Positions 31,348 through 39,271 of a stretch of 49,300 nucleotides of DNA are shown piece by piece. Source of the DNA: Trueperaceae bacterium (GTDB lineage: Bacteria; Deinococcota; Deinococci; Deinococcales; Trueperaceae); assembly GCA_020354625.1 (NCBI GenBank), contig CP070651.1, forward strand, positions 2,488,835 through 2,538,134, read 5' to 3'. The notes beneath the pieces were generated by a model. That model did not search any database and was not told where the DNA came from. It was given only the letters and a program-made list of their open reading frames with translations. Made by a program: the position numbers and the translations under genes. Position 1 is the first letter of the stretch. Every line of letters begins with the position of its first letter.

Positions 31348-32964
31348 CTAGAGGAGGTGCGCGGTTGCGTCTGCCCGGTCCATGACGGCCCGTTCTTCCG
31401 ACCAGCCGAGTTCGGATGTCAGCAAGGCGGATACTCGGGATATCGCCTGTAGCGCCGCGTCTCGTTCCAAAAACCCGAGTCGCATCCGCCGGGATAGCAC
31501 ATCTACGGTGGTCTGGGCCATTTCGTAGCGGGCGGTGTAGACCACCTCTGCCTCGAGGTAGGGGTGGCCTTCGACGAGACGCCGGTCGAGACCGTTTTGG
31601 AGCAGGAAGGCTACTTCAGCGGCTCGGTCGCCGTAGGCACTGCTCAGATGACTGGCCACCTCGAGGTCGAGATCGTAGGCCTCTTGTAGCTCTCCGGCGG
31701 CTGCAGGACTATAGCGGTCCGCACCGATCAGTTTGAGTGTCTCCGTGTGCGAGGATCCGACTTCCGTCAGCTCTCCCATCTTGATCGCCAGATCGACGGT
31801 GTCGAGCGCCATCTTGCGGTAGGTTGTCCACTTGCCACCCGCGATCGTCAGCAACCCCGATTTTGCTACATTGATCACGTGATCTCGACTCAACTTGGCG
31901 GTATCGGCCTCCTCGGGATCCGAGACCAGGGGCCGCAATCCCGACCAGCTCGCCAAGACATCGTCTTTGCTGACGGGGATGGAGAAGTACTTGTGTACGT
32001 GCCTGAGAATGTACTCGATCTCTTCCTCGGTCGCCTTGGGGTGGGTTTGAATTTCTGCGGGGTTGTCGGTGGTGCCGACCAGGGTGTGATCTTGCCATGG
32101 GAGCAAGAAGAGAACCCGGCCATCCTCGGTTTGAGGGATCAATAGCCCGGTATCGGGTGGCGAGAAGCGTTTGTCGAGCACGATATGAGCGCCGGAGCTG
32201 GCCGTGACCATGGGTGGTGCTGCTTGATCGTCCAAGCGCCGGATCGTGTCGGCATAGGGGCCTGTGGCGTTTACGGCCACACGAGCGTTGACTTCCCAGG
32301 ACCCACCAGATAGCGCGTCTGTGACCCGTACGCCCGCGATCCGATCCCCTTCTCGGAGGAAACCGGTGACCTCCAAGTGGTTGGCGATCACCGCTCCTTC
32401 GCGTGCAGCCGTCAACGCGATTGCCACGTTCATGCGTGCATCGTCGAACTGACCGTCGTAGTAAAGGACCCCACCGCGAAGCCCTTCACGTTTGAGCATC
32501 GGGAACCTCTGGAGGGCTTCTCGTGCGTCGACAAAGCGGCTCGGTTGCAGTTTGGACTTCCCGGCGAGCCAGTCATAGAGCTTTAGCCCCGTCATGTAAT
32601 AAGGTACTTCGAGCCAGTTATAGAGTGGGGTCACGATCGGCAAGGGGCGGCAGAGGTGTGGGGCGAGCTTGAGGAGGATCGCACGCTCTTTGAGCGCGTC
32701 TCTGACCAAATTGAACTGCGTTCGGTCGAAGTGCTTCACAGCAGCTTCGAGATAGCGAACCCCACCGTGAATCAATTTGGTGCTGCGGCTGCTGGTGCCA
32801 GAAGAAAAATCGTCACGTTCCACGAGCGCAACCCGAACGCCCCGGGTGGCTGCGTCGAGTGCAACTCCGGCTCCCGTGGCGCCACCCCCGATCACTAGGA
32901 GGTCGAACGACTCGTTCTGTAGTGCCGCGATATGGGTTTCACGGTCGAACGTCGTATCGATCAC
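31348..32964 (-). CDS. glpD: FAD-dependent glycerol-3-phosphate dehydrogenase
   Basis: This is a 538-residue flavoprotein from the GTG at 32964, which overlaps the glpK stop by four bases (GTGA); a longer start at 32976 is possible. FAD-binding motif [10 protein letters not shown] lies near the N-terminus, followed by [23 protein letters not shown], the family fingerprint. It oxidises glycerol 3-phosphate to dihydroxyacetone phosphate and passes electrons to the quinone pool at the membrane. It forms an operon with glpK. Confidence 0.93.
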
Positions 32965-34454
32965 GGTTGCCCCCAATCCTTAGCGCGTTCGAGTGCTCTG
33001 CGCCAACGCTCGAGCAATACTTCGCGGCCAGCACGTTCCATCTTGGGCTCAAAACGCCTTTCGATCTGCCAATGCGCGGAGAGTTCAGCGGTATCGCGCC
33101 AAAAACCGGTCGCCAGGCCTGCCAGATAAGCTGCACCGAGAGCCGTGGTTTCGGTTACTTTGGGCCGTACTACCGGCACACCGAGGATATCGGCTTGAAA
33201 CTGCATCAACAAGTCGTTTTGTGATGCGCCCCCGTCGACCCGGAGTTCGCTCAGGGGGACTCCGCTGTCGGACTCCATGGCTCTGATCACGTCGCTTACT
33301 TGATACGCGATCCCTTCGAGCGCGGCGCGGGCCAGATGCGCTGCGCCCGTCCCGCGCGTAAGCCCGAGAATGGTCCCGCGGGCGTACTGGTCCCAATGGG
33401 GAGCGCCGAGCCCGGTGAAAGCCGGTACCAGTACGACACCACCGCTGTCGGGTACGCTGCTTGCAAGGCGCTCGACGTCTTCGGCGCGGCTGATCAAACC
33501 CAGTTCATCGCGAAGCCACTGCACCACCGCGCCCGCGACAAAGATGCTCCCCTCCAGAGCGTACTTGAGATCCCCCGCCTGTTGCCAGGCGACGGTGGTG
33601 AGGAGCTGGTTTTTGGACGGTATCGGGGAAGAGCCGGTATTCAACATCAGAAAACAACCGGTGCCGTAGGTGTTCTTGCCTTGGCCGGCCTCGAAGCAGC
33701 TCTGGCCGAAAGTTGCGGCCTGTTGGTCTCCGGCGATGCCCGCAACCGGCACCGGGTTCGGGAGCGCTTCGTGCCTGGTGTGGCAGTACACCTCGGACGA
33801 AGACCGGACTTCGGGCAGGAGCGAACGAGGGATGCCAAAGATCTCGAGCAGTTCACCGTCCCAGTCGAGCTTGTGGATATTGAAAAGGAGTGTACGGGAT
33901 GCGTTGGTGACATCTGTAACGTGCACCTCACCACCGCTGAGGCGGTAGATCAGCCAGCTATCCACCGTGCCGAAGGCCAGTTCGCCACGCTCTGCTCGCT
34001 CGCGTGCACCCGGCACGTGTTCGAGTAGCCAGCTGATTTTGCTCCCTGAGAAGTATGCGTCGAGTACCAGACCGGTCTTCTGTTGAAACGTCGCCTCAAG
34101 GCCCTCGGCTTTGAGGCGGTCGATGTGCTCGGCCGTGCGGCGGTCTTGCCACACGATGGCGTTGTGAAGCGGTTCGCCTGTAAGGCGGTCCCACAAGAGC
34201 GTGGTCTCACGCTGATTGGTAATGCCGATGCCCGCAAGCTCGTTTGCGGAGACGCCCTGGGACCGGAGGACTTCCGCCATCACCTCGGATTGGCTGCGCC
34301 AGATATCCTCTGGATCGTGTTCGACCCACCCAGGTTGAGGATAGTGCTGTTTGAACTCCTGCTGGGCACTGTCGACGGGATGGCCCTCGACATCAAACAG
34401 GATCGCTCGGGAGCTGGTGGTGCCTTGGTCGAGGGACAGAATATAGTTGGCCAC
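32961..34454 (-). CDS. glpK: Glycerol kinase
   Basis: This protein of about 497 residues opens with [18 protein letters not shown], the phosphate-binding motif of FGGY kinases. Family landmarks are [31 protein letters not shown], the nucleotide-binding [16 protein letters not shown] and the substrate-related [13 protein letters not shown]. It phosphorylates glycerol with ATP to give glycerol 3-phosphate, used by the following glpD. The GTG at 34454 is preferred since AGGGAGA lies eight bases upstream; the frame opens at 34463. No glycerol facilitator is in the cluster. Confidence 0.93.
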
Positions 34455-34593
34455 GCTTTTCACTCTCCCTGTATCGGTGTAGGTCTATTCGCCTCTTCGG
34501 AGCAACCGACGATCTCACAAATGGACACGATCCCTTCGAGCGTCACGTAAAAGGTGATGGAAAATGTATAGCACGATCGAACGACACGGTTCT

Positions 34594-35049
34594 TCACTCC
34601 TTGAGGAGGTCTTCGAGCCTCAGGTGGGCATACATTCTATCTCCAGACAAAGTAGTAAGGAGGTGCTTTCTATTTGTAGGGAGCGGTTTGCTACGGTGTC
34701 GCAGATGGCTTTCAAAGCGGCCGATCTGAAAGTGTTCGCGAAGGAAGGTTGTGAGACCGGACAAATGGACTGCTCGATGAGAGAAGGCATCTAAAGAGAG
34801 CCGGCACGTCTCGGGGTAGAGGTGGATCGTTACGTGCGATTCTGCTTTGAATACCACGCCCGTGAGTCCACGCGCCCGACCGGTCCCCATCGTCGCACTT
34901 TCGAGCTGGACAGGCCCATGTGGATCTACTTTTTCGATGACTTGTTCCAAAAACGCTCGGAGCACTTCTGCACCTTGCAGACAACGGCGATCGGCCTGGA
35001 AGCCGTCGATGATGAGGTGGGTACCGAAAGCGAGACTCTCCATCCGCAC
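34594..35049 (-). CDS. S-adenosylmethionine decarboxylase-like (SpeD) paralog
   Basis: This 151-residue protein matches the short bacterial SpeD fold (GTHLIIDGFQ, then AESHVTIHLYPE). Autocleavage would occur at Glu70-Ser71, making a pyruvoyl group from Ser71; His76 is also kept. The catalytic cysteine of the DVFTCG motif, 20 residues later, is replaced: the sequence reads DAFSHR with His91 there. Such divergent SpeD homologs have been reported to act as pyruvoyl-dependent ornithine or arginine decarboxylases, so AdoMet specificity cannot be assumed. It lies 34 bases after malG on the same strand. The frame opens with GTG at 35049; ATG at 35043 is an alternative. Confidence 0.75.
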   Translation of the reverse strand: MRMESLAFGTHLIIDGFQADRRCLQGAEVLRAFLEQVIEKVDPHGPVQLESATMGTGRARGLTGVVFKAESHVTIHLYPETCRLSLDAFSHRAVHLSGLTTFLREHFQIGRFESHLRHRSKPLPTNRKHLLTTLSGDRMYAHLRLEDLLKE

Positions 35050-35083
35050 TCTTAATCTACCAGATTCGGGTGTGATCTCCGCT

Positions 35084-36397
35084 TCAGCCCTTCACGCCCC
35101 CGGCAGTGTATTGACCCGTAAGGGCTTCTTGGAAGCTGTAAAAGATCAGCAAGATCGGGAGGCTGCCCAGTACCGCGCTGGCCGCTAAGGCACCCCACTG
35201 GGTGTCGAAACGACCCGAGGAGAACTGTCTGAGGCCGATGCCCACCGTCCAGTGTTCCTGTCCGATCAAAATGGTGTTGGCGAGGATGAACTCGCTGTAG
35301 GTGCCGATGAATTGGAGCAAAAAGATAAAGAGCAGCATCGGCACGCTGATGGGCAGGATAATACGCCAAAATGCGCCCCACCTGGTGGCGCCGTCGACCA
35401 TGGCTGCTTCCTCGAGGCTCGGACTCACGGATTCGAGATACCCCTTGAAGATCCACGACGAGAAGGCGATGGCCGCTCCGGAGTATGCCAGGATCAGCCC
35501 TACGAAGGTGTTGAGGAGGTCGAGGTAGCTCATCAGGTAGAAGATCGCCACCAGGGCCATGAAGCTCGGAAACATCTGCACGAACACGAAGGTGAGCAGC
35601 GTCTGGTAGCGGCCTTCGAAGCGCATCCTGGCGAACGCGTAACCGGCAGTGGTGGACAAGAGCACGGCCAACAGCCCGGTGGTTCCCGATACGAGTAGCG
35701 TGTTTCTAATGTAGAGCACGATCATGCGCTCGCTGCTGGCGGGGATCTGTTCTCCGGCTCGATTTAGAGCGTAGAAATGCCCGGGTTGGATACTCAAGAC
35801 CAGAGCCACCAGGCAGAGGAAGATCCCCCAGGCCGAGAGTTGCTGGTAGCGCTCGAGCCGGTAGGGGTTGTCGACTCTTTTTCGCATCGCCCGCAACCCG
35901 AGGAGCGTCGAGAGTGCGAGGGTAGCGAGCACGATCAGACCCCATTGGTACGGATCGAGATGGGTGTCACTGAGTACCTTGGCGTACTGAACGAGCGAGA
36001 CCTCTGCCGGGTCGGGCAGCACGCCCGAGCGGACCAACAAGTTCCCTCCCTTGGGGGGGATGTTGGCCACGGAGTTGTTGCGGTTAAAAGAGACCGACAA
36101 CAAGTAGACCACTGGGTAGAAGACAAGTCCTATCACCAGCCAGATAAATAGATGGGTGCCCGCTGTAAGGGCGTATTGGCCGGCCCTGGCAGGTCGTCTG
36201 GCCCGACCGTAGAGGTACGCGCAAGAACTCAGCGCTGCAACCACGACACCGAAGCCGCCGAGGAACCGGATCCAGCCCCTGGGAATGACCAAAAAGAGTT
36301 CCTCGGTTACAGGGGGCGGGGTGGTGGCGACGAGGAGCGTAAGGAGGGTCGCCGCTGCAGCGACCACGCCGGCCATCGAGAGATAGTTGCGGTTCAC
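35084..36397 (-). CDS. malG: ABC maltooligosaccharide importer permease, MalG type
   Basis: This 437-residue permease starts at the GTG at 36397, which overlaps the malF stop by four bases and has AGGAG ahead. It is longer than the usual 280-300 residues. An extra 120 or so residues with two added hydrophobic segments lie between the first helices and the core RNTLLVSG. The EAA loop (SPSLEEAAMVDGATRWGAFWRIILP) that contacts the ATPase is intact. It acts with MalF and the binding protein. No malK-type ATPase lies near; a shared one elsewhere is likely. Confidence 0.88.
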   Translation of the reverse strand: MNRNYLSMAGVVAAAATLLTLLVATTPPPVTEELFLVIPRGWIRFLGGFGVVVAALSSCAYLYGRARRPARAGQYALTAGTHLFIWLVIGLVFYPVVYLLSVSFNRNNSVANIPPKGGNLLVRSGVLPDPAEVSLVQYAKVLSDTHLDPYQWGLIVLATLALSTLLGLRAMRKRVDNPYRLERYQQLSAWGIFLCLVALVLSIQPGHFYALNRAGEQIPASSERMIVLYIRNTLLVSGTTGLLAVLLSTTAGYAFARMRFEGRYQTLLTFVFVQMFPSFMALVAIFYLMSYLDLLNTFVGLILAYSGAAIAFSSWIFKGYLESVSPSLEEAAMVDGATRWGAFWRIILPISVPMLLFIFLLQFIGTYSEFILANTILIGQEHWTVGIGLRQFSSGRFDTQWGALAASAVLGSLPILLIFYSFQEALTGQYTAGGVKG

Positions 36398-38010
36398 GTG
36401 TTCGGCTCCTCTCTTAGCGCTCCCGTGACCCTGAAGTTGACGAGGCTCACCGCTACGGTGATCACGAAAATGACGATCGAGATAGCCGAACCCAATCCGT
36501 AGGCGAGACCGCCTTGAGAGCGAAAGGCTTCGTTGTAGGCCCAGCTGATGAGGATATCGGTCCCACGGGCGGTGGAGGTTCCCCACGAAACCGGCGGCCC
36601 GCCGTCGGTTAGCAAGAAGATTACGTTGAAATTGTTGAAGTTGAAGGCGAAGCCCGTGAGCGTGATGGGGATGAGCGCCGTTCGCAAGAGCGGTGCGGTT
36701 ACGCCCCAGAAGCTCTGCCAGGCGTTGGCCCCGTCGATCTTGGCGGCTTCGTAGAGTTCGCGGGGTATGGCCGAGAGCGCTCCCAGGGTGGCGGTCATCA
36801 TAAACGGAAGACCCAACCAGAGGTTCACCAGCAGCACCGCGGCGCGGGCCGGCCACATCTCTCCCAGCCAGTTGATCGGCGTGTCGGTGACGTCGAAGAG
36901 CATCAGCAGCCGGTTGACGGCACCGAAGTTCTGGTTCAAAAAGCCCCGCCACACCTGGAGGGTGATGATGTTGGGAAGCGCCCAGGGAACGATGAGGAGC
37001 GTTCGATATAGCGCTTTGAAGCGGAGGTCTGGGTTGTTTAGTAGTACCGCCAGAAAGACGCCCGCGACGGTGTTGACGATCACGGTGGTGACGGCAAAGA
37101 GTACATTCCAGGTGAAGATGGGGATGAGCGCACTGGTCGCTTGCCGCAAGATGGTCCTGAAGTTGCCTGTACCCACCCAGCCGAAGTCGTTGTAGCGGGC
37201 GATCGCTTCGACCTCAAAACTGTCTGGCAGGGGAGAGTTCAGAGTGATCTCGGCTCCCTCATCGCGCAACATGGTGCGGGTCACAGCGTCGCGATCGAGC
37301 CGCAAGGTGGTGCGCTCCAAGTCGGGAGGGAACGGGGGGGCGCGCTCGAGCATTAGCGTAGCGCCGTCGGCGGCCACCACGTCGGTTTCGAAGCCGAACC
37401 CGAGATCCGGTAGGTAGAGCTCCACACCCAAAACGCTGCGACCGGCTGGTGCTGGCTCCTCTAGAGTCAGCGTGGTGCCATCGAGATGCGTGGCCGTAGT
37501 AGGGTGGTTTCCCGAGGCGTAGAGGAGTGTCCGCACACCGCTGCAGCCGTTGCGCAGGTCGGCGCAGTCGAAATTGCGCACGTTTTCGATGGTCAGAACC
37601 ACGCCATCGACCTCGAGAACCCGTGTTTCGCTTTTGATGTTGAGCTCACCGTTACGCGTTCCCGCGTAGTCGGTGAAGGCGAGTACGAAGGTCATGATTA
37701 CCGGAAAGAAGGTAAAGGTGAAGAGGAATACGATCGCTGGTAACACGTAGTACCAGGGCATGATCCAGTCGAACGCCCGCGCGATCCATCTGAGGATCAG
37801 CACCAACGACACCAGAGCGAATACCAGACTCGTGTAGACCGGCGCGGTCGGAACGACCAGTCTCAGTACGAGAAACCCAACAGCTCCCATCAGGCTGGCG
37901 CTTGCGAGCGCCGCGAAGAGGAGGAGCAGCGAACGCCACAGGCTCACGCCGGTACTTTTCGCCCTCGGCAAGAACTCTTTGGCGTCACGAGAGAGGTCGA
38001 TCGCCTTCAC
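36394..38010 (-). CDS. malF: ABC maltooligosaccharide importer permease, MalF type
   Basis: This is a 538-residue permease. The GTG at 38010 follows GAGGAG immediately, so a start a little downstream is possible. It has a large periplasmic loop (about residues 145-305) after the third helix group, like the P2 loop of MalF, which contacts the binding protein. The EAA loop PRELYEAAKIDGANAWQSFWGV is present. It is followed by malG with a four-base overlap. Homodimerisation is unlikely because MalG provides the partner. Confidence 0.88.
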   Translation of the reverse strand: MKAIDLSRDAKEFLPRAKSTGVSLWRSLLLLFAALASASLMGAVGFLVLRLVVPTAPVYTSLVFALVSLVLILRWIARAFDWIMPWYYVLPAIVFLFTFTFFPVIMTFVLAFTDYAGTRNGELNIKSETRVLEVDGVVLTIENVRNFDCADLRNGCSGVRTLLYASGNHPTTATHLDGTTLTLEEPAPAGRSVLGVELYLPDLGFGFETDVVAADGATLMLERAPPFPPDLERTTLRLDRDAVTRTMLRDEGAEITLNSPLPDSFEVEAIARYNDFGWVGTGNFRTILRQATSALIPIFTWNVLFAVTTVIVNTVAGVFLAVLLNNPDLRFKALYRTLLIVPWALPNIITLQVWRGFLNQNFGAVNRLLMLFDVTDTPINWLGEMWPARAAVLLVNLWLGLPFMMTATLGALSAIPRELYEAAKIDGANAWQSFWGVTAPLLRTALIPITLTGFAFNFNNFNVIFLLTDGGPPVSWGTSTARGTDILISWAYNEAFRSQGGLAYGLGSAISIVIFVITVAVSLVNFRVTGALREEPNT

Positions 38011-38025
38011 CTCCTCATAGTGAAG

Positions 38026-38052
38026 TGTCCAGAGGCTTGATGCCTCTGGACA
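38026..38052 (-). terminator. Stem-loop between malE and malF
   Basis: TGTCCAGAGG pairs exactly with CCTCTGGACA (10 bp, seven-base loop) in the 70 bases after the malE stop. There is no T-run, so it is more likely to protect the malE message than to stop transcription; E. coli malE-malF has a hairpin at the same place. Confidence 0.6.
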
Positions 38053-38080
38053 GAAACGTGGCGTTTCAGATTCTAAGCGA

Positions 38081-39271
38081 TCAGTTCCCCAAGATCTCCG
38101 ATGCCGCCTGTGTGAGGCTGCCGGCCACATCGCTGTCGGCCGATTCGAGGATGACCGTCAGTGCCGTCCCCATGGGGCCCCACACAGAACCCATTTCGGG
38201 GATGTTCGGCATCGGCTCGGCGTTCAGAAGCGCCTGCCCAAAGCCGGCGATGACGGGATCGTCATTCACTTGAGCGAGGGCGCTTCCCGAAGCGGGGATA
38301 CGGCCCGAGAGCTGGGCCAAACTCACCTGCGCCGCTGGGCGGGCCAACCACTTGGTGAAGTTGGCTGCGTCGGCCCGGTTTTTGCTAAAGGGGTTCAGAA
38401 CCACACCCTGCACACCCATGAAGCCACTGAAAGGAGTGCCGTCCGCTAGGGGTGGGATCGGCATAACCTTCAAGTTGGTGATGCCGGCGTTGCGGAAGTT
38501 TTCGATCTCCCAGGGACCGTTGTAGGTCATGGCGAGTGCACCTTCGCTGAAGAGTCCCGTGACGGTAGGATAGTCGGTCCCTGCAGGGATCAAGCCCAAT
38601 TCGTGCCTGAGCGCCTTGATCGCTTCCCCACCACGAATGGCGCCCTCGTTGGCCAGGCCGAGCTCGGCCGGATCGAGGTCGCCTTGGGCATCACGGCCGA
38701 ATACGAATCCGCCGAAGGTATGGAGCCAGTTGTAGGAAAAATAGAAGTTGGCGCTGTCGTACATGAATCCGAAGCTGTCCCCCGAGGTGAGTTCCTGGGC
38801 GACTGCGAGCAGTTCCTCATAGGTGGCCGGCGCTTCGGGGACCAAGTCGGCGTTGACGATGAGAGCCGGGCCCTCGACGTACATCGGCAGGGCGAAGAGT
38901 TTGCCGCCTATGGTGAATCCGACGCGAGCCTGTTCGCTCAGGTCCTTCAAGAAGTCTGCGGTGGCGAAGCTGGTCATGTTGGCCGCCACGCCGGCTGCGG
39001 CCAACTCCCCGATGCGGTCGTGGGGCACGCCCACCAACAGGTCACCCGCTTCGCCTGCAGGCGCGCTGAGCAACCAGTCGGGTTGGGCCTGGGCAAAGTC
39101 GACCCTTACGATCTCGACCGGCACCCCGAAGGCCTCTGTGAAGGCCGCAGTTTCGTTTTGGAACCACTCTAAAGTTAGATCGCGCCAGGTGGTCCAGACG
39201 GTGAGCCCTTGCCCAAACGCCAGGCCCAAGCCGGCAAACAGTGTGACGAGAACGATCAGATACTTTTTCAA
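38081..39271 (-). CDS. malE: Maltooligosaccharide-binding protein, MalE type
   Basis: This is a 396-residue exported protein with a TTG start (39271), GGGAGAG about nine bases upstream, and a signal peptide ending LAFGQ. The mature protein has type 1 extracellular-binding features: LTVWTTWRDLTLEWFQNE, then GKLFALPMYVEGPALIVNADLV, then GALAMTYNGPWEIENFR and the final ANFTKWLARPAAQ. It binds malto-oligosaccharides or related glucans and hands them to MalF-MalG; the exact sugar is not proven. Confidence 0.88.
   Translation of the reverse strand: MKKYLIVLVTLFAGLGLAFGQGLTVWTTWRDLTLEWFQNETAAFTEAFGVPVEIVRVDFAQAQPDWLLSAPAGEAGDLLVGVPHDRIGELAAAGVAANMTSFATADFLKDLSEQARVGFTIGGKLFALPMYVEGPALIVNADLVPEAPATYEELLAVAQELTSGDSFGFMYDSANFYFSYNWLHTFGGFVFGRDAQGDLDPAELGLANEGAIRGGEAIKALRHELGLIPAGTDYPTVTGLFSEGALAMTYNGPWEIENFRNAGITNLKVMPIPPLADGTPFSGFMGVQGVVLNPFSKNRADAANFTKWLARPAAQVSLAQLSGRIPASGSALAQVNDDPVIAGFGQALLNAEPMPNIPEMGSVWGPMGTALTVILESADSDVAGSLTQAASEILGN

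Follow-up and report, generated by a model that had tools for sequence, protein, structure and literature searches.

The DNA analysed here is a 49,300 nt stretch of a Trueperaceae chromosome (contig CP070651.1, positions 2,488,835 to 2,538,134; hereafter the window), and the question it raises is what a homolog of SpeD, the S-adenosylmethionine (AdoMet) decarboxylase of spermidine synthesis, does when it has a histidine at the position of the catalytic cysteine and lies between genes for a sugar importer and for glycerol use. The gene concerned (34594..35049, reverse strand) had been interpreted in the original prediction as a SpeD paralog with a changed substrate or chemistry. Comparison with its orthologs indicates that it probably encodes a SpeD-derived pseudoenzyme: across the clade to which it belongs, catalytic residues have been lost and both fold and selection have been kept, with the window protein itself retaining the serine and the histidine of the active site.

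The open reading frame starts with GTG at 35049 (151 amino acids, aa), and an in-frame ATG at 35043 (149 aa) may be the true start. Its product scores 56.1 bits against Pfam AdoMet_dc (E 5e-15; cut-off 25) and 42.6 bits against the NCBIfam equivalog for bacterial SpeD, TIGR03330, which is under the cut-off of 75.65. It aligns with SpeD of T. maritima by sequence and by predicted fold, and on its sequence it is a class 1b SpeD homolog. Ser63, His68 and Cys83 of the T. maritima enzyme are taken as needed for processing and catalysis (Li et al., PMC10407285). Alignment to that enzyme confirmed the residues named in the original prediction, namely the pyruvoyl-precursor serine (Ser71 from GTG, Ser69 from ATG; codon 34837..34839), the catalytic and processing histidine (His76 or His74; 34822..34824) and, at the place of the canonical cysteine 20 residues after the serine, a second histidine (His91 or His89; 34777..34779), all three codons being on the reverse strand. 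The sole other nearby cysteine, Cys82 (Cys80 from ATG), aligns near a beta-hairpin turn away from the active-site position, and it was rejected as a substitute, Cys being found in that column in one of the 31 orthologs described below.

An AlphaFold2 model of the window protein (pLDDT 91.9, pTM 0.87) had as its best Foldseek matches three structures of T. maritima SpeD, 1VR7, 1TMI and 1TLU, with human spermine synthase (3C6K) at ranks 7-8. Matches to PII-like proteins (SbtB, CPII) were too weak to be considered, with a template modelling score of about 0.3. The predicted order of strands and helices is the same in an ortholog that has Ala for the serine. The AdoMet_dc fold is predicted to be retained in the window protein.

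Divergent SpeD proteins were detected in 27 of 39 genomes of the family, using a profile search built from the divergent proteins; contig scans gave 7 loci with alignment A2 and no matches with the window protein as a single query. Full-length Cys-less proteins numbering 31, 26 from Trueperaceae and 5 from one genus on the Thermaceae side, were aligned. Cys is found in none of them in the Cys83 column, which is occupied by Val (10), Arg (8), His (4), Pro (4) and, in a few, Ser, Ala or Thr. His91 is, on this alignment, one among many replacements of Cys, and the nearest relatives of the window protein (in genomes G002 and G003) have Arg. The Ser63 column holds Ser in 11 proteins, Ala in 9, Thr in 6 and Gly in 5, a loss of Ser in 20 of the 31, and the His68 column holds His in all. 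Ranked by conservation among the 149 positions of the window protein, the Ser column is 49th and the Cys column 74th. Invariant or near-invariant positions, numbered from the ATG, are G7, D13, G59, H74, F87, R109, G134, R136 and R142. Around the old active site E68, S/T61, H74 and an aromatic residue at 76 are retained, and the C-terminal helix motif is retained across the clade.

When the tree was computed with the Ser and Cys columns removed and without characterised SpeDA and SpeDC sequences, all 31 Cys-less proteins formed one clade (94/96). The T. maritima SpeD row used in the tree was typed by hand, and its residues 2-82 match the PDB alignment. The sister group consists of intact Thermaceae SpeD with the same N- and C-terminal motifs. 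Over the whole tree a minimum of 2 changes is needed at the Cys position and 6 at the Ser position, and because of these counts and of the single clade, the loss of Cys probably came first and was followed by several separate losses of Ser. The Thermaceae proteins, class 1b SpeD of the SpeD1 type, share with the window clade the fold, an N-terminal FGxHLxxDG and a C-terminal G(E/D)RxYxxxR, but they keep Ser, His and Cys and lie away from maltose and glycerol genes, whereas the window clade is Cys-less and often Ser-less. The clade therewith provides a natural series from intact through Cys-less to Ser-less proteins in which the change from enzyme to non-enzyme can be studied.

The genetic background of the window gene was examined in the closed chromosome of 4,285,982 bp. 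The window gene is the single AdoMet_dc match in it, and the label of paralog is not borne out for this reason; the normal speD that the original prediction advised looking for was sought and not found in this chromosome. Spermidine synthase (speE) is also absent from the genome, with one Pfam hit of 23.9 bits in a 758-aa frame and an NCBIfam score of 29 bits against a cut-off of 472. With the Cys gone and neither speE nor another SpeD in the genome, the gene would not provide a working AdoMet decarboxylase for spermidine. That part of the earlier claim stands. The part that proposed a switch to ornithine or arginine, or a chemistry based on His91, is not supported, and a His91-mediated switch was rejected as the leading explanation, since the residue varies among orthologs and most of them, 20 of 31, have no Ser from which a pyruvoyl group could form.

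Pyruvoyl arginine and ornithine decarboxylases that descend from SpeD (SpeDA and SpeDC; PMC10407285, PMC9992855) are the precedent for such a switch, and many of them, like the window protein, occur without speE. Genomes with these SpeD-derived enzymes lacked normal SpeA or SpeC (PMC10407285), and a similar setting is found here: no SpeA scored over the cut-off in the window genome, no OKR decarboxylase was found in it, and its two pyridoxal phosphate (PLP) group-IV decarboxylases are LysA-like and below the cut-offs. Deoxyhypusine synthase-type proteins (SpeY) were likewise not found in the genome. Two arginase/agmatinase-family genes are present, and the window protein has retained Ser71, His76 and the Glu that precedes them, all of which would suit a neofunctionalised pyruvoyl decarboxylase that is SpeDA/SpeDC-like or acts on a new substrate, with His91 or some other group taking the place of Cys as proton donor. 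We nevertheless consider such an enzyme unlikely. Ser63, His68 and Cys83 are marked as conserved in SpeD, SpeDA and SpeDC alike (PMC10407285), and most SpeDA and SpeDC genes lie near polyamine genes; neither holds for the window clade, in which the residue replacing Cys is not itself conserved, being Arg in G002 and G003, and orthologs at the same locus carry Ala or Thr for Ser. No polyamine gene adjoins the window gene. Canonical SpeA and SpeC are missing from the window genome, yet three relatives that carry an ortholog of the window gene (G013, G014 and G019) have a normal PLP arginine decarboxylase, SpeA, over the cut-off, in a co-occurrence count that leaves out G006. A decarboxylase function shared by the clade is therefore unlikely, since Cys is always and Ser mostly lost and SpeA accompanies the gene in these three genomes. 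Consequently, AdoMet_dc annotations in Trueperaceae should not be taken as indicating spermidine synthesis or an arginine or ornithine decarboxylase.

The loss of speE and of an intact speD from the window genome, the high divergence of the orthologs and the clean absence of the gene from some relatives would also fit a gene in decay, left over from a lost spermidine pathway and now without function. This is judged very unlikely, as the reading frames are open in nearly all orthologs, the His and the C-terminal motifs are invariant, and both a promoter box and the placement before glpK, described below, are conserved or near-constant. The ratio of nonsynonymous to synonymous substitution rates (dN/dS, Nei-Gojobori) is well under 1, lying between 0.11 and 0.39 in 8 within-genus pairs, and neighbouring glpK gave 0.10-0.21 in 7 of those pairs. 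Some of these pairs come from lineages in which Ala or Thr has replaced the Ser, and the SpeD-like coding sequence is under purifying selection in these relatives.

An extended -10-like box, TGGTAGATT (35054..35062, reverse strand), is separated from the downstream GTG by 4 nt and from the ATG by 10 nt. Upstream of the start codon, at a distance of 5-10 nt, 17 of 24 Trueperaceae loci have a TGGTANNNT box and 19 the shorter GGTANNNT. In random 30-mers from the same loci the frequency of TGGTANNNT is 0.3%, and a binomial P value for the enrichment is inexact as the loci are related to each other. Leaderless mRNAs have reportedly been found in Deinococcus deserti, and the position of the box suggests that the SpeD-like gene likely has its own leaderless promoter and transcript.

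The surroundings of the gene are as the original prediction described them, with a sugar importer on one side and glycerol genes on the other. All of these genes are on the reverse strand. Directly downstream is glpK for glycerol kinase (32961..34463), followed by glpD for glycerol-3-phosphate dehydrogenase (31348..32976). Directly upstream is an open reading frame for a malG-like permease (35084..36952), the true start of which is probably near 36400, preceded by genes for a malF-like permease (36394..38130) and a malE-like maltose/maltodextrin-binding protein (38081..39271). Both in the window and in relatives, the malG and malF frames share about 560 nt, and the long 5′ part of the malG frame is probably a spurious extension.

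The conserved order of the block is cysS-dprA-malE-malF-malG-[SpeD-like gene]-glpK-glpD. In 19 of the 24 Trueperaceae loci examined in full, representing 10 genera, glpK is directly downstream of the SpeD-like gene, and three further loci (G004, G061 and G062) have the same arrangement. The gap to glpK is mostly 0-67 nt, with 130 nt in the window and 298 nt in G012. Reduced forms of the block also occur: G006 and G018 are missing the mal genes and keep cysS-dprA-gene-glpK-glpD, and G002 and G003 keep the gene with glpK and glpD alone. Inheritance of the linkage from Thermaceae was rejected, as intact SpeD in that family is not beside maltose or glycerol genes.

For a pseudoenzyme at this locus, the leading idea is that it regulates glycerol or maltose use by binding a ligand or a protein. 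The position before glpK, the residues kept around the old pocket (the aromatic residue at 76, Ser/Thr61, His and Glu) and the lack of two regulators, HPr and EIIA-Glc, suggest such a role; we put it forward tentatively, as a possibility. These two proteins, of phosphotransferase system (PTS) type, regulate GlpK in other bacteria, and neither was found in the window genome. The sequences show descent from an intact SpeD of class 1b, like that which Thermaceae still have. Cys was lost in the ancestor of the clade and the pyruvoyl Ser repeatedly, probably afterwards, the fold, the Glu/His surroundings of the old active site and the C-terminal motif staying in place. Proteins of the clade would then neither form the pyruvoyl cofactor nor decarboxylate, and may work as binding partners that adjust the uptake or phosphorylation of glycerol and maltose. 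The simplest route would be contact with GlpK, whose PTS-type regulators the genome lacks. In a more specific form that we think rather doubtful, the SpeD-fold pseudoenzyme would sense a ligand and control glycerol kinase or the maltose importer in place of the PTS proteins, and AdoMet or a nucleoside bound in the old active-site pocket may serve as examples of such a ligand. Linkage to glpK offers a concrete and testable partner for the pseudoenzyme.

Several observations weigh against this interpretation. In the window protein itself, Ser, His and the Glu before them are still present, so that autocleavage is chemically possible and some residual activity conceivable. Its orthologs share only 23-38% identity with it. 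The dN/dS pairs come from relatives, with none within the window's own genus. The regulatory role is drawn from indirect evidence and is correspondingly tentative. The gene follows malEFG but is not beside glpK in G013 and G021, and it has neither mal nor glpK neighbours in G001 and G017. In G016 and G023, malG runs straight into glpK and the SpeD-like gene is cleanly absent; the gene is therefore dispensable for the operon, and its linkage to glpK may partly reflect inheritance of a block that is conserved even without it. That relatives without a match might have an overlooked, divergent copy was rejected, since a profile search of the region upstream of glpK in these genomes gave no hit.

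Inactive SpeD-fold proteins kept in other organisms provide partial parallels for the pseudoenzyme. The trypanosomatid prozyme (PMC5201418) is likewise a dead AdoMet decarboxylase homolog held by selection, but it partners an intact AdoMet decarboxylase and is stated to be restricted to trypanosomatids (PMC5201418). A comparable activator of intact SpeD would be consistent with the dead homolog seen here and with G013 and G021, which carry an intact or near-intact SpeD elsewhere. However, intact SpeD is missing from most carriers of the gene and from the window genome, where the lack of a partner excludes this role, and for the clade it is extremely improbable. The AdoMet decarboxylase-like domain of human spermine synthase (3C6K; PMC5201418) is also an inactive SpeD-fold domain that has been kept, but it is fused to an aminopropyltransferase, whereas the window protein is free-standing and its gene adjoins glpK. 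Among bacteria, Lentisphaerota and Desulfobacter have fusion proteins with a degraded C-terminal SpeD domain that lacks active-site residues (PMC10407285), but there the degraded domain is joined to an active SpeD and shows linkage to speE. No description of a stand-alone, glycerol-linked bacterial clade of dead SpeD that survives its polyamine pathway was found in the literature searched.

Other degenerate SpeD genes were seen in the sequences compared. Five loci from Thermaceae and related families (L049, L050, L064, L065 and L066) carry, immediately before speE, an additional SpeD copy in which the catalytic positions have Ala for Ser, Tyr for Cys and Val for Glu; these genomes also have an intact SpeD elsewhere, and the additional copy is a candidate bacterial prozyme-like partner. 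The Thermaceae-side genus g23 (L037, L048, L133, L134 and L135) has a degenerate SpeD with Ser replaced by Gly and Cys by Val, His or Ala. This may be another instance in which the protein outlasts its catalysis; a class 1a-like SpeD lies beside speE in G042, G046, G050 and G059 of this genus. The SpeD of G037 (L081:9272-9712) is otherwise intact, but its catalytic His68 is replaced by Gln.

Two further genes were noted. A LysA-like PLP decarboxylase gene (G000:C1:2853615-2855018; L128:1116-2519) adjoins acyltransferase-like and aldolase-like genes, with which it perhaps forms a specialised metabolite cluster. In T. radiovictrix, the SpeD-like gene is adjoined by a gene for a 1162-aa SNF2/DEAD helicase with a NOV_C domain (L031:3712-7200), which is possibly a defence gene.
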